A DNA stretch of 64,000 nucleotides from Lachnospiraceae bacterium (GTDB taxonomy: Bacteria > Bacillota > Clostridia > Lachnospirales > Lachnospiraceae). Shown piece by piece: positions 18,302-28,995 of this stretch. A model generated the notes under the pieces. It was not told the DNA's origin. It ran no database searches and saw only the letters and a program-made list of their open reading frames with translations. Position 1 is the first letter of the stretch; each line of letters opens with the position of its first letter. Location: assembly GCA_017439675.1 (NCBI GenBank), contig JAFSIQ010000039.1, positions 1-64,000 on the forward strand, in the 5' to 3' direction. A program made the translations under genes and the position numbers.

Positions 18302-18643
18302 CTAATGCTTGGCTCGCACCTGTTCCCATTCGTCGAATCGCTCTTGGTACTGGGTGTTGAGCCATTCTATCATTTGCTCCTTTCCCTCCATATCAAATGG
18401 AAAGGTAGCTGTGGTTTTCTGTTCCTCCGGGGTGTTTTCAAACGAAAATGGTTCCGGCCAGATAATAATCTCAAACAGGGCATCCCCCTTCTTGTCTGCC
18501 GGCTTTAACGCCACATCCTCCATAGGATTTCTGGCAATTCGAAAGCGCATCCCCCTATGACTGCCAAAGTACGGCTGGGCATGCTCATACCATGTAATTC
18601 CGTAAGAATCTTTATTCTCTATCTTAACTATCTTTTTGTCCAT
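18302..18643 (-). CDS. Conserved-looking hypothetical protein, 113 residues
   Basis: I do not recognise this protein. It begins MDKKIVKIENKDSYGITWYE, is rich in aromatic and charged residues, has no signal or membrane segment, and ends in a charged helix (EWLNTQYQERFDEWEQVRAK). The start at 18643 has AGGTG five bases upstream. Its stop lies 2 bp from the stop of the convergent AraC gene. Confidence 0.65.
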   Translation of the reverse strand: MDKKIVKIENKDSYGITWYEHAQPYFGSHRGMRFRIARNPMEDVALKPADKKGDALFEIIIWPEPFSFENTPEEQKTTATFPFDMEGKEQMIEWLNTQYQERFDEWEQVRAKH

Positions 18644-18726
18644 ACCTATCACCTAAATCTCTAATCATCTCTGCTGAATCAAGTTTAATCTCTCATTATG
18701 TTTTTCATCACAAAAATTCTACAATA

Positions 18727-19747: not shown

Positions 19748-20590
19748 TCAAATCCCAAGATATTGCTTCAAAGCTTCTATACTCCTGTTGCAATCCTCCA
19801 CACCCAAATCGTACATTTCCTGAAGCTTATTCTCATCTCTTTCAATGCGCTTAATATCAACTGTCCGAGATGGTCGAATCACAAAGATTTCCTTGTTATT
19901 TTCCATATCAATAATCTTTTCCACCGTATCGTTATAATTCTGATAGCGATTACACAACGTTTCTACAAAATCTGGATACTTTCCATATGCCAACTGATAC
20001 AACAAACGATTGGACGGTTTCTTGCGATACTCAAGTGGTCTAGTCAGCACTACAATAATCTTATCATATCCAAGTGCCTTACATTTCTCTACCGGAATAC
20101 TATCTGCTAGTCCACCATCCAAATATTTCTTTCCATCCAATTCCACCATTTTAGAAACCAAAGGCATAGCAGATGTAGCACGCAACACCTCCATCTCATC
20201 AAAGAGATTGGAGAGCTTTCGATACTCCACCTGTCCTGTCTCCACGTTGGTAATGGTAGCATAAAAATCTGTACCTGATTTCTCAAATGCTTCCTGGTCA
20301 AACACATCTAACTTCTGTGGCACTGTATAAAAGGAAAATTCCTTATTGATAATATTACCCGTGGTTAAAAATGAGCGAAGACCCATATATCTTGGGTCTT
20401 TTGCATATTTCTTATTATATCGAATAACACGTCCTCGCTGTCTTGACGGATAATTCACTCCGAACAACACACCTGCCGACGACCCCACGATTCCGTCCAC
20501 GGGAATATCGTGATCCATAAAAATGTCCAACACACCTGCGGTGTACATGCCACGCATAGCACCACCCTCTAATACTAATCCGACACTCAT
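19748..20590 (-). CDS. Patatin-like phospholipase
   Basis: Predicted serine lipase with a Ser-Asp dyad, 280 residues. The oxyanion motif LVLEGGAMRGMYTAGVLD is at the start, the nucleophile motif GSSAG at ~37, and the catalytic Asp in YLDGGLADSIP at ~158. It resembles the YjjU-type bacterial patatins. AAAGGGGAAG precedes the ATG. Only 28 bp separate it from the upstream membrane coiled-coil gene, so it is probably the last gene of the 20.6-27.8 kb operon, where a membrane lipid substrate would make sense. Confidence 0.92.
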   Translation of the reverse strand: MSVGLVLEGGAMRGMYTAGVLDIFMDHDIPVDGIVGSSAGVLFGVNYPSRQRGRVIRYNKKYAKDPRYMGLRSFLTTGNIINKEFSFYTVPQKLDVFDQEAFEKSGTDFYATITNVETGQVEYRKLSNLFDEMEVLRATSAMPLVSKMVELDGKKYLDGGLADSIPVEKCKALGYDKIIVVLTRPLEYRKKPSNRLLYQLAYGKYPDFVETLCNRYQNYNDTVEKIIDMENNKEIFVIRPSRTVDIKRIERDENKLQEMYDLGVEDCNRSIEALKQYLGI

Positions 20591-20618
20591 AACACTTCCC
20601 CTTTTTACTTGTTATCTA

Positions 20619-21797
20619 TTATTGCAAATTGATATGATAGATTTCCAATTCTCTCTTTACCTGTTCCCGAAGTCCTGGATTTGCCTTTAACATCTCCCTG
20701 ATATCTTTTAAACCGGACAGTCTTAATTCTTCGTTATATGCGATTTGCTCACGCAGTTTCTGTCTTCTCACATTCAAGGAGTGTTTCACCTCAACCATCT
20801 CTCTACTGTCAATCAATGCCACAGATTGTTTGGTCCAAATATCTGGATCCTTCACCCCATAGGTAAACAACAGCTTCGTTAATGCCTCAGATAATTCTCG
20901 CAAATCACCGGTGGTACGCTGATATTTGCGAACCTCATCCACCATAATCAAATACTGCTCATACAAATATTCCATTTCTCTTAAGCTTTTAATCTTATAC
21001 TTACCATATAAATATTCCAACGTAGATGTATTGTTAATATACTTAATCTTCACCTTATTCATCAATCCAATAGCCCGATTCTCTCTCGCCTCTGACATTT
21101 TGAACTCGTAGGAAAGATTGCGATACGTCACCACGATAAGTGCCGTCATAGCAACCACCACAAGAATAATCAGTAACACTGGAACCAGCATACTATTCTC
21201 TGTTAACAAGCCAACGACCGCTAGAGTTACGATTAACAACACCGAAACTGTTCCAAACACCGTGAGAAAAAGACGAAGCCTACTTTGACGGTCCTCAATG
21301 GAACGTTGCAAATACTCTTGAGTATTCTTCTCTGCTTCCAAATGCTTCATATCTCTCTTAATTTTCATATCCATATCTTCTAGGTCTTTCAATCTTCCAA
21401 AAATCTCAGTAAGTTCCTTTTCCACCCCCTGAATCATTCGGAAATTCTCATCGCTGATGCGGTCATCTGAATGCAGAAACTGTGTAGTTTCATTTTCTAA
21501 AAATGCAATCTTCTTAGCAATATCCGTAATTTCCTGACGAACATTCTGAGGAAGTTCTTCTATGGTCTGAATATCCGTAAAGTAGGATGTTACCATTTCA
21601 TACTCCACACGTAAATCCTCCATCTGATAGGTCGCATCCACAATCTGGTCGCACTTGTACACCACATCGTCACCCGGACCTTCCTCTTCCTGCCCTTGCC
21701 GTTTAGCCAAGAAGCTGTCTATACTCTCATATTCAAATGATTCCTCTGTCACCTCAGTCTTAGTAAAAATATCCTTGACTGTGTCAAATAACTTCAT
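20619..21797 (-). CDS. Membrane protein with coiled coils, unknown function
   Basis: A 392-residue protein I do not recognise. The first ~175 residues are charged and helical with coiled-coil character (IAKKIAFLENETTQFLHSDD, VEKELTEIFGRLKDLED). Two adjacent hydrophobic segments follow at ~182-202 and ~205-225, then a second long helical region to the end with no enzyme motif. The hairpin topology suggests both halves lie in the cytoplasm. AAGGAGCTATTAG precedes the ATG. It sits 50 bp after the TPR gene and 28 bp before the patatin gene, so it may anchor a complex to the membrane. Confidence 0.8.
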   Translation of the reverse strand: MKLFDTVKDIFTKTEVTEESFEYESIDSFLAKRQGQEEEGPGDDVVYKCDQIVDATYQMEDLRVEYEMVTSYFTDIQTIEELPQNVRQEITDIAKKIAFLENETTQFLHSDDRISDENFRMIQGVEKELTEIFGRLKDLEDMDMKIKRDMKHLEAEKNTQEYLQRSIEDRQSRLRLFLTVFGTVSVLLIVTLAVVGLLTENSMLVPVLLIILVVVAMTALIVVTYRNLSYEFKMSEARENRAIGLMNKVKIKYINNTSTLEYLYGKYKIKSLREMEYLYEQYLIMVDEVRKYQRTTGDLRELSEALTKLLFTYGVKDPDIWTKQSVALIDSREMVEVKHSLNVRRQKLREQIAYNEELRLSGLKDIREMLKANPGLREQVKRELEIYHINLQ

Positions 21798-21847
21798 AAC
21801 TAATAGCTCCTTAACTTAAGACTCATCCACAAGCATTCTGCATAAAT

Positions 21848-22681
21848 CTATATCATCTGTTCCCTAAATTCCTTCTTTAACTTTTCTACCACCGTATCCA
21901 TCCGCTTGTTAAAATCAGTCAGATTATTCTTCTGGTAGTGGAAAATCGCCTTTTCCATGCGGTGATAAAGTGGAGAACCAGTTACATCCCTTTCACCATT
22001 ATCAATAGCCTCATAGATGTCCGGCAACATGCTTTCTGCATCATAATACTTAGCAAGCACCTCCACCTCAGACTTATCCTTCATAGTGGCAAGCAACAGC
22101 AAGCATTGATATACAGACTGCTTGTCATTCCGTAATTCGTATGCCTTCTGATAAGACTTGATTGCTTCCTCTAATTCAAAATTATTGGCAAGTGCCACCC
22201 CACGGTTATGGTAAACGGCACCTAGCAGCTTGTCATTGTTCATATCCTTATACTGCTCTATTATCTCGTCATAAATGCCGGCCGCCTTCACATACTTGCG
22301 ATACCGCAAGAATCCGTCAGCCTGTTTCTTCCGAAACTGTGGTGGTGTCAACCCCTTCATCCGTTCCACCTGCAAAATAAACTCCTTCACCTCAGGAATG
22401 GTATAAAATTCCTTATGCGTGAGTATGGTAGTCAGAAGATCTGTCAAATCTGTTGTTTCCTTTTCCTTTACTACACGAAGCTTCAATGCAAGCTCTGGCA
22501 TATTAATTTCCTTCTCTATCCAAGAAAATAATTTCTTGTCGATATGCTCCTCAGAAATCAGTGCAATATTATTGTACACATAGTAGCAAAGCTCCTCATA
22601 GGAAAACACTTCTATCTTGGTGTTGGGAAAAATGTATGAAGTTTTCGCTGTCGGTGTGTCACACAATATTACTCTTGCCAT
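21848..22681 (-). CDS. TPR-containing protein of the 20-28 kb operon
   Basis: A 277-residue soluble protein. The first ~110 residues form an unrecognised domain (MARVILCDTPTAKTSYIFPN). Residues ~120-205 contain tetratricopeptide repeats, for instance ADGFLRYRKYVKAAGIYDEI and NRGVALANNFELEEAIKSYQ, and the tail is helical and charged. AAAGGAAATGTT precedes the ATG. It is 76 bp downstream of the actin/Hsp70-like gene. TPR domains usually bind peptides or partners, so it may bridge the ATPase-like protein and the other components. Confidence 0.85.
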   Translation of the reverse strand: MARVILCDTPTAKTSYIFPNTKIEVFSYEELCYYVYNNIALISEEHIDKKLFSWIEKEINMPELALKLRVVKEKETTDLTDLLTTILTHKEFYTIPEVKEFILQVERMKGLTPPQFRKKQADGFLRYRKYVKAAGIYDEIIEQYKDMNNDKLLGAVYHNRGVALANNFELEEAIKSYQKAYELRNDKQSVYQCLLLLATMKDKSEVEVLAKYYDAESMLPDIYEAIDNGERDVTGSPLYHRMEKAIFHYQKNNLTDFNKRMDTVVEKLKKEFREQMI

Positions 22682-22757
22682 AACATTTCCTTTCTGTAAC
22701 TGTTCCTCCTAATCTGTTCGGGGTAAATCCCTGTCCAGACTTTTCTATTCCCTCACA

Positions 22758-24014
22758 TCAGCCAATGGAAAAATCCTTTCGGTATATCTTGTTGGTAGTT
22801 GGATATATCTTTCCAAATCCCATATCCCGTATAATAATTGCACCCATTTTCTCATCGTACATTTCCACCTCCAAGCAAAGCTTTGTCGTTTTCGGTGGAC
22901 GCTTCGGCAATCCATGAACCTCAATAATTTCCTTCACGATATCCTTGGATATCTTATCGCGATAAATCATCTCCACTCGGTTGGTATCATCCAAAAATAC
23001 AGTAACCTTACCATTCATGTTGTACCATTCTTTGCCCCCAATAGCAATCGGGCAAAACCGATTCCGACCTTCTACTTCTCCTACATTGACCCCAATATCA
23101 AAAGGAATGCTTCCTTCTGTACATAAAATATAGTCCCTGTCCTCTTCGTAGGCTCCAAGTCTCGCATGATAACAGGCTCCCTTTGTATAGATATTCTGTC
23201 CCATAAAGACACGTCTGCCATCACAGAGAACCTTGGTGGCTTCCTCTATCCACTGGTCATTAAAACCGGGACCTGTTAAGTAAACCGTAGAAATATAGGT
23301 TTCCCGCATCCTTTCTCTTGCAAGTTCGGCGAAATGCTTATCCAACTGCTCCACGTCCTGAAATAGCATGGTATACGGCATATCACTTCGCATATCGTCA
23401 TGCTTCAAGGTAAAAATTCTGGTATTGCCCTGATGCTTCTTATCGATGCGATAATATTCCATTCCGTCTGTTCCATACTCGAACATGGCAATGCTGTTGG
23501 TTCGAAGCTTCTCATCCTGCCGCATCACATATTGGAAAAATGCATTCTCATGACTCATGACATAAAATGCTTCCTTGGACAGTTTCAACTCTTCCCGTAA
23601 CTGACAAAGCACCTTATAAATAGTCGGGTGGTAGGTTTCTAACGTCACCGTTAACCCCTTTAGCTGATACTCCTCGGAGCGCGCCATGAAATCCTCTACA
23701 TGGGTTCTCAGCAAAATGAGTAACAACACTTCATAGGTATAGGACGCACCATCCACCACCACGTGATTCGGTGAATCTATGTTATGGACAATGTCCTCTA
23801 CAATAATTCCTTCCTGCTGAAACCGGATGGTACTCACATTGTTGCCTACATACCACTTCTTCTCCTCTAACGAATAGAACATGACATTAGGAAGCTGATA
23901 GGTCTCCGAATTATTCAATTGATATATGGACTCCGGCTCTTTCTTATCTTCCCGAAAGAACGAAAGCTGAAGATTCTTCTTGCACAAATCCAGTCCAATA
24001 TAGATATCCTTCAT
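22758..24014 (-). CDS. Divergent actin/Hsp70-fold protein (DUF5716-like)
   Basis: A 418-residue protein whose motifs fit the ASKHA (actin/Hsp70) nucleotide-binding fold. Residues 4-20 (IYIGLDLCKKNLQLSFF) resemble phosphate loop 1. Residues ~174-190 (SIAMFEYGTDGMEYYRI) resemble phosphate loop 2 with an unusual Glu-Tyr-Gly-Thr. Residues ~243-285 (VYLTGPGFNDQW, then KGACYHA) resemble the adenosine motif. From ~300 on there is a distinct beta-rich domain. The length suits an isolated nucleotide-binding domain plus a small extra domain rather than a DnaK chaperone. I associate it with DUF5716 from memory only. AAAGGAG precedes the ATG. Confidence 0.8.
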   Translation of the reverse strand: MKDIYIGLDLCKKNLQLSFFREDKKEPESIYQLNNSETYQLPNVMFYSLEEKKWYVGNNVSTIRFQQEGIIVEDIVHNIDSPNHVVVDGASYTYEVLLLILLRTHVEDFMARSEEYQLKGLTVTLETYHPTIYKVLCQLREELKLSKEAFYVMSHENAFFQYVMRQDEKLRTNSIAMFEYGTDGMEYYRIDKKHQGNTRIFTLKHDDMRSDMPYTMLFQDVEQLDKHFAELARERMRETYISTVYLTGPGFNDQWIEEATKVLCDGRRVFMGQNIYTKGACYHARLGAYEEDRDYILCTEGSIPFDIGVNVGEVEGRNRFCPIAIGGKEWYNMNGKVTVFLDDTNRVEMIYRDKISKDIVKEIIEVHGLPKRPPKTTKLCLEVEMYDEKMGAIIIRDMGFGKIYPTTNKIYRKDFSIG

Positions 24015-24046
24015 GTTCTACTCCTTTCTATTAACCATCAAGTATT

Positions 24047-24124
24047 TGCGAAACTCTCAAGTAAATGTCACAAGTTGGTTTGTTTACTTTGTCTAACTTT
24101 CATACAAATCATTAGAGTTTCGCA
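24047..24124 (-). other. 11 bp perfect inverted repeat inside the operon
   Basis: TGCGAAACTCT (24047-24057) pairs with AGAGTTTCGCA (24114-24124) around a 56 nt loop that itself holds shorter pairings. It fills most of the 155 bp gap between the first and second genes. There is no T-run, so RNA processing, differential stability or regulation is more likely than termination. Confidence 0.5.
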
Positions 24125-24169
24125 ATCATCTAAACCAAGCACTTAAGAAATGTGACACATTTCGTTCCT

Positions 24170-27100
24170 CTACTCCATCAACTGTAGATTCTCCTCCACA
24201 ATGCTTGATAGCTTCAAATATTTGTCAATTTTGTTAATTAGGGTCTGATTCTCCCCAATCTCTTGGTTCACTAGCATAGAATTCAGCATTTCAAAGCGGT
24301 TCTCATAGGCCTCCGTCTCGCCCTTCGCTTTCATCCCTTCGCTTTCATATACCTTGGTAAAGCCTGCCATGCCCTCTGGCATCTGATAGAGAAGATTCTC
24401 CCCATGGAATAACACGAATTCCTTCACATAATATCCAGGAACCACCTCCATCATTCTAGCAACCTTATTACATTCTGGTTTCTCTACACCGGCTTGTATA
24501 CCATAGGTAAAGGTAATCTGCTTTCCAGCCTTTCCCCTTGTCACCACATAGGTCATTAAGAACAAGTCCTTCGGCAGCTTCATATATTCCTTGAAACCTC
24601 TGAAAAACGGTAGCATAATTCCACGCTTCATAAATGCTTCCACCTGCTGTTTCGCCCATGCAATCTCCCGTTCCTCTAACTTGGTCTTACGACTTAAAAA
24701 CAACAACAGTGCCACCTCGCACATGTCGTCTCTCCATTCATCTGTCACCATTTGTGTATACAGTGTATGGAAAAAGTCCTCTGGCATTTCTTTCTCCTCC
24801 ACAAGGTACGCAAAGGACGCTCTCTTTAGAAACGCCTTAATTACCATTCCATGTCTCTTCTTCTTGGTGTAAGAAGCAAACACCTTGAAAATATCACCGT
24901 GCCACTGTTCAGTATAAAGGGTTGCACAGATAATATTTTCCTCCATCAAATCCAATCTAGAAAGTCTTCCATTGGCACGCTTCCAAAGCTTTATCATGTC
25001 ATGCAGACTACTCTGATAGTAATCCACCAAATATCCTAAAATCTCAGGGGTGTCCTGTCCCAACCGGTAAAGATAAACAGCCATAGAGACCAAAACCTCT
25101 TCTTTTTCGTATTGTGGAATGGTTATCATTTTCTCCACCAACTGCACCATGTTCTCCGGCGTCACTCCCTGATATCCAAATCGCTTCACCGCCTCATAAG
25201 CCTTGTCATAAAGCTTACAAAAAATCAGATAGGTGATATATTCCACGCCATTCTTTGCCGATACATACGCTGCATCTACACGGCTTACATAGCTTCTTAA
25301 AATCTCCATATCCTGCTGCTCATAGTAGTACCGCACAATGCCATATATCGCCTGTTGCTTTGTCTCGGTACTCACCACCGGAAACGCCAACATATCTCTG
25401 GCGATATTCACCTCCCGCGCCTTGGTTGCCTCAAAGGCACGAAGTGCTTCATACTGATATAATACATATCGATAATCATCACTGGCGTAACGGCTCAAAA
25501 TATCCATGTATTCCTCTTCATCCACCAGCTTCTGAAGCTTATACGGAATGGTGCTGACGTAACGGTTCTTATCCTTGCCAACCAAGGAAATCACAGCAGA
25601 TTCCGTAATCATATCCACATATGCCACATGGTTGATAACCGGAACAACCTCTTCCTTCTCTAACTCCTTGTGTGCCACTACCACTGCAATGATGTTGTCA
25701 TTCAACACAGTCAGCTTGCGCTTAAAGATAACATTGACAATACTTGCTGCAAAGTGTGGTGTAACTGCCTGCGGTTTCAAAAACTCACTGTAGAGCACAG
25801 ACAAATCATCACTCATGTTGCCCTTGATAATCTGACCTTCCATAAATGCGGTCATATTCGGCAAATAATTCTCATACTGCCCCAAATAATGACGCTTATT
25901 GTGCACCACATTAGCATAGAGGTACGCGTACTCCTTATCCGTCAGGGTACTCTTATAATTGAAGTATCGAAGCACAGAATCCGGCATTAGCCCGTAATTA
26001 CTCTTATCCATACTGCGCAGATAATTTTCCTGAATACCCACAATCTTAAATCCGCATTTGATACCCTCAAGGTAATACGGATGATAAAAATGTTCCAGCT
26101 TATTACCACGAATCAACAAGCTACATATAATCCGAATCACATCTGGCTTTTTCTTCACGTCATAAATCATGGCAAGCAGCGAAAATACCCTCTTTGAAAA
26201 TTCCTTTTCCCTTGCAGCTAACTGCAAAAATTCTTCCTCTGCCTCTTTGCTCAAATAATGATTCTTAAGTCCAAATTTAACCGCGGATAATTCCACCGAT
26301 GACAATTTCTTCATCAACAATGGATCCTGGTTAATAATATCACAGACCTCAATTGCTAGAATTGGGCTCTCGTAGCCACCCATGTATAAGCCTTCTATCT
26401 GGGTAAACAGCCATTGCTTGTCCTTCTGGTATCTCTCATCCAAATAAATCAAAAGCCAAAAATAAAACAGTTTATCTGATTCTGTCTCCAAGGCCTTCTC
26501 AATCTCCTGACACGCCTTGACAATCAGTCTCACATCCTTTGACAACAACGCCTTTAAATACATGGTATAGCAACGTTCTCTTTTACCATCCATAGATGGA
26601 TCCATATCCGCTTCCATGCGACGAATTTCCTGTCTCGCATTCTCCTCCTGACCGGACAAAATGCTCATGTGAATCAATCCAAGCTTATATACACCCACAC
26701 ACGGCTCAAAGCCAATCAGCTTCTGCAACGCCTCTCTCGTTTTCTCCACAAAGCCCATAAGTGGAAGCAAACCAATCCTGTAATCCAAATAATTATGAAT
26801 CAAGGCTGCCACTTCTAGCTTGTGTAGCTTGCGGTCATGATTCCGATGCACCAACACACGGGAACTCTCCTCCGGCTTGCGTATTACAATATGTACTGCT
26901 ATCTTTTGATAGGTATTTTCCAAATAAATGACACCAGTGGTGGTCTCATTCTCATCTAACTGTTCCGGGTCTAAGGTGTAGTGCACAAGACAGGTATCTC
27001 CAGAAAAGTCCATACTACAAACTCTGCCTTGCTCCAAACCGATGAACTTGGCATCGGTGGATACCTTCATATCACAGTAGCCCCATGTATTCTTTCTAAG

Positions 27101-27742
27101 CACCAGCTCATGCTGTTCCTTCATTTTCGGAAAATGGTAGTAAAAACGGTCATGCTCCACCTGCAACGTCATAGCACGCTTCTTGTGGGTATAGACCAAA
27201 AATTCCTCTAAGGCAAGGTTCTTATCCGGCGATACCTTGAGGCTTCTGTAAGCACGAATATAATCCTCATTACCTGATAACAAGGTGCTCTCAAATTCAT
27301 CGGAACAGAATATCTCCAATGCTTTCTCCCAGTTTTCCTCAGCCAAAGCAGAGAACTTCATCAAATCCTCCAAGGCAATTCCATTGGCATCAATAAATGG
27401 TGCCACAATCTCGATGTTGTATGGAATCTTCTTCTCCACACCATTACCAATCAAGTGAAGTGCCCCCTCATAGGTACTTCCCTTTTTCTTTGCATTTCCA
27501 TCAAACTGAAAATGAATCTCTCCCTTTCTGCCAATAACGCTATGGTCACTTAAACACAACAAATAGGCATCGTCATATACCATCATTTTCATTGGCACAT
27601 CATTGTCAGATGTAATGGAAATGCTACCGGTATATACGCTGCCCGCTTCTATCTTAAGTTGTAAGTAGCTTTTTGAAATTGTTATCTCAGGATATTCTAC
27701 GCAGAAATCTCCCTTTGCATACTGTTCAACTTTGCTCTTCAT
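24170..27742 (-). CDS. Large helical-repeat protein with Ig-like N-terminus (DUF5717-like)
   Basis: A 1190-residue protein with no signal peptide or membrane segment. The start at 27742 (MKSKVEQYAKGDFCVEYPE) has GGAG 5 nt upstream; a longer TTG-initiated form would have no site. Two beta-sandwich-like domains occupy about residues 10-115 and 200-305. A long alpha-solenoid with degenerate TPR-like helix pairs spans ~310-1060, and a beta-rich carboxy-terminal domain (VVTRGKAGKQITFTYGIQAG) follows. No catalytic motif is visible. I associate it with DUF5717 from memory. As first gene of the operon it is probably the scaffold for the actin/Hsp70-like and TPR partners. Confidence 0.82.
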   Translation of the reverse strand: MKSKVEQYAKGDFCVEYPEITISKSYLQLKIEAGSVYTGSISITSDNDVPMKMMVYDDAYLLCLSDHSVIGRKGEIHFQFDGNAKKKGSTYEGALHLIGNGVEKKIPYNIEIVAPFIDANGIALEDLMKFSALAEENWEKALEIFCSDEFESTLLSGNEDYIRAYRSLKVSPDKNLALEEFLVYTHKKRAMTLQVEHDRFYYHFPKMKEQHELVLRKNTWGYCDMKVSTDAKFIGLEQGRVCSMDFSGDTCLVHYTLDPEQLDENETTTGVIYLENTYQKIAVHIVIRKPEESSRVLVHRNHDRKLHKLEVAALIHNYLDYRIGLLPLMGFVEKTREALQKLIGFEPCVGVYKLGLIHMSILSGQEENARQEIRRMEADMDPSMDGKRERCYTMYLKALLSKDVRLIVKACQEIEKALETESDKLFYFWLLIYLDERYQKDKQWLFTQIEGLYMGGYESPILAIEVCDIINQDPLLMKKLSSVELSAVKFGLKNHYLSKEAEEEFLQLAAREKEFSKRVFSLLAMIYDVKKKPDVIRIICSLLIRGNKLEHFYHPYYLEGIKCGFKIVGIQENYLRSMDKSNYGLMPDSVLRYFNYKSTLTDKEYAYLYANVVHNKRHYLGQYENYLPNMTAFMEGQIIKGNMSDDLSVLYSEFLKPQAVTPHFAASIVNVIFKRKLTVLNDNIIAVVVAHKELEKEEVVPVINHVAYVDMITESAVISLVGKDKNRYVSTIPYKLQKLVDEEEYMDILSRYASDDYRYVLYQYEALRAFEATKAREVNIARDMLAFPVVSTETKQQAIYGIVRYYYEQQDMEILRSYVSRVDAAYVSAKNGVEYITYLIFCKLYDKAYEAVKRFGYQGVTPENMVQLVEKMITIPQYEKEEVLVSMAVYLYRLGQDTPEILGYLVDYYQSSLHDMIKLWKRANGRLSRLDLMEENIICATLYTEQWHGDIFKVFASYTKKKRHGMVIKAFLKRASFAYLVEEKEMPEDFFHTLYTQMVTDEWRDDMCEVALLLFLSRKTKLEEREIAWAKQQVEAFMKRGIMLPFFRGFKEYMKLPKDLFLMTYVVTRGKAGKQITFTYGIQAGVEKPECNKVARMMEVVPGYYVKEFVLFHGENLLYQMPEGMAGFTKVYESEGMKAKGETEAYENRFEMLNSMLVNQEIGENQTLINKIDKYLKLSSIVEENLQLME

Positions 27743-27755
27743 AGATTCTCCATTC

Positions 27756-27783
27756 AATCGAGTAGTTTCACACCTACTCGATT
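27756..27783 (-). promoter_or_regulatory. Leader hairpin of the DUF5717-like gene
   Basis: AATCGAGTAG (27756-27765) and CTACTCGATT (27774-27783) form a perfect 10 bp stem with an 8 nt loop. It ends only 4 bp before the GGAG site of the 1190-residue gene, so it may modulate translation, stabilise the messenger or be an operator. Confidence 0.55.
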
Positions 27784-27795
27784 ATGTGATTTGTC

Positions 27796-27825
27796 TTGAT
27801 GTTTGTCATCAATCAGTGGTATAAT
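27796..27825 (+). promoter_or_regulatory. Promoter of the PLP aminotransferase gene
   Basis: TTGATG (27796-27801), 18 bp, TATAAT (27820-27825); the start codon follows about 80 bp later. Confidence 0.65.
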
Positions 27826-27903
27826 GATGTTCATATAATAACTCTTTGATTATATCAAATTTTATTACATAATGAAAGAAAAAATGGAAAGAAGGTTATT
27901 TTT

Positions 27904-28995
27904 ATGGGCAATGTAAAAGAATCTTTTCACGGAAGTGATATCGAAGTCATTGCTGAACGTTATCAGATTGGCAAGGACACTATTATCCCTTATGCCTCCA
28001 ATGTGAATCCGTTGGGATTCTCACCTAAGGCAAGACAGGCTCTGTTAGATGGCATTGATGCCATTAGTTCTTATCCAGAAAGAGACTATGCCTCTTTACG
28101 TGGCTCCATTTCCAAGTACTGTGGTTGCTTGCCTGAGCAATTGATATTGGGGAACGGTACTTCGGACTTAATTCGTCTTACATTAGAGACCTTGAAGCCT
28201 GCAAAAACCATGATTGTAGGTCCAACCTATTCAGAATATGCAAGAACTGCCACCATGTTTGGCAGTGAAATAGAAACCTACATGTTGAAAAACTTAGATG
28301 ATTTTGAAATGGATGTGGATATGTTCTTGAAAGCACTGAACGAATCCATCGAACTGTTAGTTATTTGCAATCCGAACAACCCAACAGGAAAAGCTCTTAC
28401 AAAAGAGCAGATGGACACCATTTTAGCTCGTTGTATGGAGCTTGAGATTTTTGTAATGGTGGATGAAACCTATGTTGAATTTGTAAGGGATATAGATTCC
28501 ATATCCTCCGCCACCTTGACAAGGAAATACGATAACCTTGTGGTGCTTCGTAGCGTGTCTAAGTTCTTCGCAGCACCAGGTATCCGTTTAGGTTATGCTA
28601 TTACCAACAACGATGATTTCTTAGAGTCTACCTCTAACAACAAGATTCCCTGGAACATCAATTCTTATGCCTGTGTTGCCGGCGTGATGTTCGAGGATGA
28701 GAAGTACATCAACCTAACAAAAAGTCTGATTCAGACTGAGCGAAACCTTATCTACTCTGCTCTAAGCAGCCGTAAGACCATCAAAGTATTCAAGCCCGAG
28801 GCAAACTTTGTACTGATTAAGTTGCTAAAGGAAGGACAGACTGCCGGAGAGGTATTCGACTACTGTTTGAAGAAAGGCTTTATGATTCGCGACTGTACAG
28901 ACTATGAAGGTCTAGGCGACCAATATGTTCGTTTCTGCTTTATGAAACCGGAGCAGAATGACAACATGGTAAATACCATTTTAGAAATTGTGTAA
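27904..28995 (+). CDS. PLP-dependent aminotransferase, class I/II (HisC/CobD type)
   Basis: A 363-residue fold-type I enzyme. It shows the HisC/CobD amino-terminal pattern SNVNPLGFSPKARQAL and YPERDYASLRGSISKY, the cofactor-binding ICNPNNPTGK and VMVDETYVEFV, and the Schiff-base lysine in RSVSKFFAAPGIRLGYAI. These fit both histidinol-phosphate aminotransferases and threonine-phosphate decarboxylases. No histidine or cobalamin genes are adjacent, so the substrate stays open. AGAAGG precedes the ATG, and it is divergent from the DUF5717-like operon. Confidence 0.9.
   Translation: MGNVKESFHGSDIEVIAERYQIGKDTIIPYASNVNPLGFSPKARQALLDGIDAISSYPERDYASLRGSISKYCGCLPEQLILGNGTSDLIRLTLETLKPAKTMIVGPTYSEYARTATMFGSEIETYMLKNLDDFEMDVDMFLKALNESIELLVICNPNNPTGKALTKEQMDTILARCMELEIFVMVDETYVEFVRDIDSISSATLTRKYDNLVVLRSVSKFFAAPGIRLGYAITNNDDFLESTSNNKIPWNINSYACVAGVMFEDEKYINLTKSLIQTERNLIYSALSSRKTIKVFKPEANFVLIKLLKEGQTAGEVFDYCLKKGFMIRDCTDYEGLGDQYVRFCFMKPEQNDNMVNTILEIV

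Follow-up and report, generated by a model that had tools for sequence, protein, structure and literature searches.

The window analyzed in this study is a 64,000-nucleotide stretch of a Lachnospiraceae bacterium (assembly GCA_017439675.1, contig JAFSIQ010000039.1, positions 1 to 64,000), taken from a metagenome-assembled genome (MAG) with a completeness of 70%. On its minus strand lie four genes, A to D, whose products probably form a chaperone-derived complex tethered to the membrane, which would descend, in reduced form, from a dedicated Hsp70/GrpE machine. The proposal centers on B (22758 to 24014; 418 amino acids), a DUF5716 protein that appears to be a lidless pseudo-Hsp70 with a trimmed nucleotide-binding domain (NBD), the beta part of the substrate-binding domain (SBD-beta), and no catalytic residues. 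The other members are A (24170 to 27742; 1190 amino acids), a DUF5717 protein and putative scaffold; C (21848 to 22681), a predicted tetratricopeptide repeat (TPR) adaptor; and D (20619 to 21797), a probable membrane anchor. The patatin gene E (19748 to 20590) follows on the same strand. An earlier note, made from the letters of this DNA, had listed five minus-strand genes with gaps of 28 to 155 bp; all five were found again in the window, with gaps of 155 bp (A-B), 76 bp (B-C), 50 bp (C-D), and 28 bp (D-E).

B matched the Pfam family DUF5716_C (E = 7e-90; 301.4 bits against a cut-off of 34.7), and A matched DUF5717_N (9.1e-246; 818.3 bits) and DUF5717 (4e-62; 210.6 bits), with a cut-off of 25 for both, which bears out the two family names given in the earlier note; Pfam states no function for either. 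The AlphaFold model of B (predicted local distance difference test score 91) had Ssz1, DnaK, and Hsp110 as tied best structural matches, and a profile of the Lachnospiraceae B sequences matched the DnaK structure 4rtf (E = 1.9e-4). Profile comparisons aligned Lachnospiraceae DUF5716 over 422 columns (E = 2e-57) with P and over 400 columns (E = 1.6e-26) with K, respectively a degenerate and a canonical Hsp70 of the larger array described below. By fold and descent B is an Hsp70, with homology over the NBD and SBD-beta; the alignments showed that the NBD has a large internal deletion and that the lid is missing, B ending with SBD-beta and having no SBD-alpha. The Hsp70/actin fold suggested previously is thus backed by both profiles and structures. 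Because SBD-beta is present and the profile and fold matches are to Hsp70s, an actin-type protein was ruled out.

The catalytic residues of an ATP-cycling Hsp70 were missing from the B family (we take the residue names to follow E. coli DnaK numbering). The K70 equivalent was found in 0/78 Lachnospiraceae B sequences and 0/30 P sequences, and the E171 equivalent in 0/82 and 3/31. The Gly-3 and the Thr of phosphate-2 were each absent throughout (0/82 in B, 0/30 in P), as was the Ser of the adenosine motif (0/82 and 0/31), and the GTT positions of phosphate-1 were retained in only 1/81 and 4/81 B sequences, with Ser allowed. Still present in B are the first Gly of the adenosine motif (82/82) and, mostly, the Asp at the head of phosphate-1 (66/81). 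The canonical Hsp70s H, K, and V carried all the scored motif residues in every row (25 to 30 rows each) with few exceptions, namely the adenosine Ser in H (28/30) and V (25/26) and the phosphate-1 Asn in K (24/28). Because the K70-, E171-, and phosphate-2-type residues are gone in all of the homologues scored, B appears to be a pseudo-Hsp70 and is not likely to be the ATPase that had been presumed.

In other families of the order, which we take to be Lachnospirales, we identified a longer array composed of A1 (about 400 amino acids), A2 (about 900 amino acids), H, G, P, K, V, C, and sometimes D. It thus holds orthologues of A, B, and C together with three canonical Hsp70s, of which V is fused to a VWA domain, and a GrpE fusion (G). 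In one such locus (L049), Pfam detected DUF5717 in A1 and A2, TPRs in C, HSP70 in H (1.8e-77), P (1.9e-16), K (2.5e-57), and V (2.5e-95, with VWA), DUF5716_C in P as well (1.8e-25), and GrpE at the C-terminus of G (1.4e-14); its canonical Hsp70 paralogues matched the main DnaK model only up to positions 483-493 of 625. GrpE was also detected in G of families f22 and f4 (families are given by label, f1 being taken as Lachnospiraceae), and the G profile matched the solved GrpE 4ani (3.8e-5). With unlabelled open reading frames (ORFs) skipped, the order H-G-P-K-V was observed in 24 of 36 loci from 34 genomes, in 10 families (f4, f5, f7, f11, f16, f19, f22, f23, f24, and f25); parts of the array occurred in three more (f9, f12, and f18), and most of the other loci were cut by contig ends or scattered. 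In f5 the array was mostly broken up (L173, L174, and L175 included), and full-length V lay on another contig than A in all six genomes. The module is likewise not a matter of Lachnospiraceae alone, as it corresponds to part of this longer array, which 13 other families carry, whole or partly.

The members of the array differ in how far they are conserved. Across 10 expanded loci, mean pairwise identity was 76% for H, 76% for V, and 73% for K, versus 37.5% for P, 33% for C, 26% for G, and 25% for A2 (nine loci, one fused form). Judged by these identities, the canonical Hsp70s are strongly constrained, whereas the dead Hsp70, TPR protein, scaffold, and GrpE fusion diverge more freely; a chaperone core that evolves slowly among fast-changing partners would account for this contrast. 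A1 and A2 form one gene in f24 (L163 and L168; 1326 and 1329 amino acids) and f22 (L183-L188; 931-1006 amino acids), as in Lachnospiraceae. In one f4 locus (L038 in genome G038), the Hsp70-VWA and TPR genes were each split into two ORFs and the GrpE protein was short, at 279 amino acids, possibly through decay or an assembly error.

The full Hsp70-VWA gene was absent from the three Lachnospiraceae genomes and the one f8 genome searched, where matches stopped before the VWA part. Five single-contig Lachnospiraceae genomes had 2-6 HSP70 matches each, versus 8 in each of five expanded genomes. The two other Hsp70s of the window genome, presumably DnaK and an HscC-like protein, fell outside the H, K, and V clades in the tree. 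One single-contig Lachnospiraceae genome encodes a 953-amino-acid ORF (G594:C1:31888-33033) with partial HSP70 matches (6.3e-24 and 7.2e-10). The f8 genome (G447) carries a compact A-P-C locus (L181) that groups inside Lachnospiraceae, reflecting a binning error, a transfer, or taxonomy. Beyond the order, the scaffold profile gave 8 matches in 249 genomes of the phylum, the four strong ones all in f1 and four marginal ones elsewhere (E from 2.7e-4 to 8.8e-4). Among 293 genomes of the class, PF18984 had 13 matches over the cut-off, all in f1, and a marginal one in f62 that the A1 profile did not repeat. In 243 class genomes, with up to four candidates scored per genome, none of the Hsp70-VWA profile matches listed reached the VWA part, and all ended by position 502. 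Within open-licence articles, we found no description of the array, no literature for the Pfam accessions of DUF5716 and DUF5717, and nothing relevant under the names themselves; Hsp70 combined with Lachnospirales led to work on gut communities and feeding only. The main text of PMC11019930, an article on DnaK duplication, does not contain 'Clostridia' or 'Lachnospir'. It is the present analysis that connects DUF5716 and DUF5717 with Hsp70 and the larger array.

The gene trees place B with the degenerate member of the array. In a tree of 60 rows, the split between Lachnospiraceae B plus P and H, K, V, and DnaK received a support of 100/100, and B grouped with P of f4 (100/99; 99 in a quick tree of 85 rows), a family that still has the whole array. 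These relationships indicate that B is the dead Hsp70 (P) of the larger array. P is already degenerate there; therefore, the Hsp70 that Lachnospiraceae kept is the degenerate one. By parsimony, Lachnospiraceae would have lost the active Hsp70s and GrpE and retained the dead Hsp70, a direction of loss that depends on gene trees together with parsimony. Sequences and predicted models together show common descent, fixed gene order, fold, and motif decay in the retained Hsp70.

The earlier note had recommended a survey of gene neighborhoods, and this survey revealed that the order of A to D is conserved. We scanned with a D profile, using one genome per species, and kept the best 78 of 535 relatives, which were titled mostly as Lachnospiraceae or as genera or loosely named MAGs of Clostridia. 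The order A-B-C-D was kept in 70 of the 78 loci. The paired genes were successive members of the module in 71 (A-B), 72 (B-C), and 77 (C-D) loci; in one of the 71 (L089), two other genes separate A from B. Median gaps were 18, 6, and 12 bp, respectively, with frequent overlaps, the gene start being taken as the first possible start codon. Five of the remaining seven loci were cut by a contig end (L094, L099, L112, L123, and L157), one (L102) shows three other genes from B to the contig end but no visible A, and the last (L118) had no B called. The Lachnospiraceae module also occurs in two MAG records (L087 and L110) whose titles, Bacteroidales and Bacteroides, are probably wrong.

The A profile matched 166 of 294 genomes of the order, 91 of them in f1, and no f1 genome appeared among the 20 listed of the 128 order genomes lacking an A match. 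Upstream of A, a divergent pyridoxal phosphate (PLP) aminotransferase gene was present in 61 of the 77 f1 loci and, among 30 loci from elsewhere, in 13. Because of the 91 matching f1 genomes, the lack of f1 among the listed misses, and this frequent synteny, A to D look like core genome that is inherited vertically as a unit, not like an island.

The predicted model of A has two N-terminal tandem PapD/ASH-like beta-sandwiches, followed by a long two-half alpha-solenoid with a beta insert and a C-terminal beta domain with helices, which matches the large helical-repeat, scaffold-like protein with an Ig-like start described previously; its sequence profile had a single chance-level match in the PDB (E = 0.32). 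The gene was assigned an ATG start, the longest ORF starting at a TTG at 27757. In Pfam, C had TPR matches only, all under the curated cut-offs, and its family profile matched TPR structures; E29, E30, and W54 of its conserved N-terminal domain were invariant (27 aligned sequences). D had no Pfam match above the cut-off, and its family comparison yielded weak coiled-coil matches only. Ten aligned D sequences shared the motif (R/K)EMVEV(K/R/Q)HxLxxRR, with E333, M334, V335, E336, V337, H339, L341, R344, R345, and R349 invariant. The membrane segment previously noticed in D was recovered in a hydropathy scan as one merged hydrophobic stretch (205-223); the D proteins of the 78 relatives had two segments in 51 cases, three in 14, and one in 13. 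D, with a hydrophobic hairpin between coiled coils, is thus probably a membrane anchor.

We infer from these features the formation, location, and function of the complex. A would scaffold it, C would serve as an adaptor, and the hairpin of D would tether it to the inner face of the membrane. B would bind a client or partner statically, without an ATP cycle, in the manner of Ssz1 in the yeast ribosome-associated complex (RAC), and clients might be passed on to the housekeeping DnaK. If RAC is taken as a guide, active Hsp70s in the large array would work on a scaffold alongside a dedicated exchange factor and an Hsp70 that does not cycle, and the A, B, C, and D proteins of Lachnospiraceae would act at the membrane as a static complex for holding or recruiting. 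Within RAC, which pairs Ssz1 with Zuo1, Ssz1 is described in PMC7083937 as a lidless, partner-bound Hsp70 of NBD and SBD-beta that binds ATP without hydrolysis and contacts nascent chains via its SBD. Ssz1 is also among the tied top structural matches of B, in which sequence and model indicate that the catalytic residues and the lid are missing. However, RAC is eukaryotic and its partner is a J protein on the ribosome, whereas the module partners are unrelated; no J domain was present among the Pfam matches shown for A to E and ten L049 proteins. Furthermore, B has a trimmed NBD and the module a predicted membrane anchor. A bacterial parallel is CnuD of CoCoNuT, which is reported in PMC11090510 to have an Hsp70-like NBD/SBD with degenerate motifs and, by prediction, poor ATP hydrolysis at best; however, CnuD belongs to McrBC-type restriction systems, and the module proteins scanned with Pfam matched no McrB, McrC, or nuclease.

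Several observations weigh against the proposed complex and its descent. With B as the query, 3 of 25 same-genus genomes (completeness 77-80%) had no match. Both trees gave long-branch warnings, and the f22 P sequences shifted place between them. D was not found in the array of several expanded families (f11, f16, f24, and others), although the profile could miss a divergent D; because of this gap, membrane tethering may not be universal. Finally, 26 positions of B are conserved at 90% or more in alignments of up to 82 sequences, and many of them adjoin the former adenosine site; because of this conservation, B could bind a ligand or nucleotide or have an unusual activity. The residues beside that former site (G248, G250, F251, W255, C264, G266, R268, F270, G272, N274, and G279-C281) would suit a sensor switch that retains such binding rather than a passive holder, a reading we regard as unlikely; the same pattern could be a protein-protein interface.

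It is improbable that the compact A-B-C-D locus is ancestral and that the larger array grew by the addition of Hsp70s and GrpE. The sample contained no clear A relative outside the order, which leaves room for this direction because the A tree could then not be rooted from outside. Nevertheless, B branches together with a degenerate class of Hsp70 whose array also contains canonical Hsp70s, f4 has the whole array and a P that groups with B, and the large form or its parts occur in 13 families versus f1 and one f8 genome, whose sequence groups inside f1. We likewise consider it doubtful that the locus is a conflict or defence system akin to the GAP1-N2 theme. PMC7159879 describes operons with HSP70 and GrpE, partly with a second HSP70, and with FNIII fused to DnaJ or TPR; the expanded array shares with this theme several Hsp70s, GrpE, a beta-sandwich/solenoid protein, TPR, and VWA. 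However, GAP1-N2 (PF20013) was found in none of nine genomes tested, in a search in which Corynebacterium glutamicum was positive among 14 control genomes. In addition, the second HSP70 of those systems lacks the peptide-binding domain according to PMC7159879, whereas the dead Hsp70 here keeps SBD-beta. PADLOC reported nothing for A to D and only weak generic phospholipase effector matches for E (1.7e-5 and 5.9e-4). Defence genes are usually patchy in distribution; the core-genome pattern of A to D and its aminotransferase synteny also speak against this role.

The machine favored in the earlier note, an ATP-driven, membrane-bound assembly acting on the envelope with the patatin as lipase effector, appears very improbable. 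It draws on the ASKHA fold of B, the hydrophobic segment of D, and the patatin gene 28 bp after D in the window. Against it stand the loss of the catalytic lysine, glutamate, and phosphate-2 residues in all B homologues scored, which makes an ATP-driven machine unlikely in Lachnospiraceae, and the rarity of the patatin, which follows D in 6 of the 78 loci (gaps of 48-171 bp), all in the genus of the window. This rarity rules out the patatin as a core member and tells against a role as effector. Hence, A to D survive from the proposed five-gene unit and E does not. Within the genus, the patatin is present in 7 of 21 maps, the window included, two of which end before D. E itself, with Pfam matches to Patatin (7.9e-19) and DUF6363 (4e-24), is a patatin-like phospholipase; it scored 21.3 bits against the NCBIfam CBASS lipase model (cut-off 200) and thus does not qualify as a CBASS-type patatin effector. 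It may be co-transcribed in the window species, and shows no sign of belonging to the module. Farther downstream, positions 18302-18652 of the window encode a 116-amino-acid hypothetical protein; an ORF of similar size often lies directly after D or E in same-genus loci.

The intergenic region between A and the divergent aminotransferase gene (27904-28995, plus strand) spans 27743 to 27903. A perfect 10-bp inverted repeat (AATCGAGTAG / CTACTCGATT) occupies 27756-27783, just upstream of the start codon of A; it was absent among the 16 same-genus relatives listed and was therefore rejected as a shared operator. On the A-sense strand, at about 27780-27860, ACATCAAG lies downstream of the promoter-like TTTGATATAATC. 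ACATCAAG recurs there in 11 of the same 16 relatives (counted by eye), and is possibly an operator or leader element.

A wider proposal, for and against which we see equal chances, is that the order has its own multi-Hsp70 machine, with three active lidless Hsp70s (one with VWA), a dead Hsp70, a fusion of GrpE with a long helical part, and a PapD-like/solenoid scaffold, and that Lachnospiraceae stripped it of every active ATPase, leaving the dead Hsp70 at the center of a core-genome membrane complex. If true, B would be a bacterial counterpart of Ssz1, and a pseudoenzyme scaffold would have arisen from a whole machine. Among the bacteria of the human gut, Lachnospiraceae are one of the dominant groups, and the module was found in 91 of their genomes in one order-wide sample, yet no function is known for it. 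Connecting DUF5716 with Hsp70, and DUF5717 with the scaffold of that chaperone, provides a testable frame in which the active subunits were lost and the inactive one was kept. The families of the order, with full, scattered, and reduced forms, offer a natural series in which to explore the role of a pseudo-Hsp70 that has lost its partners.

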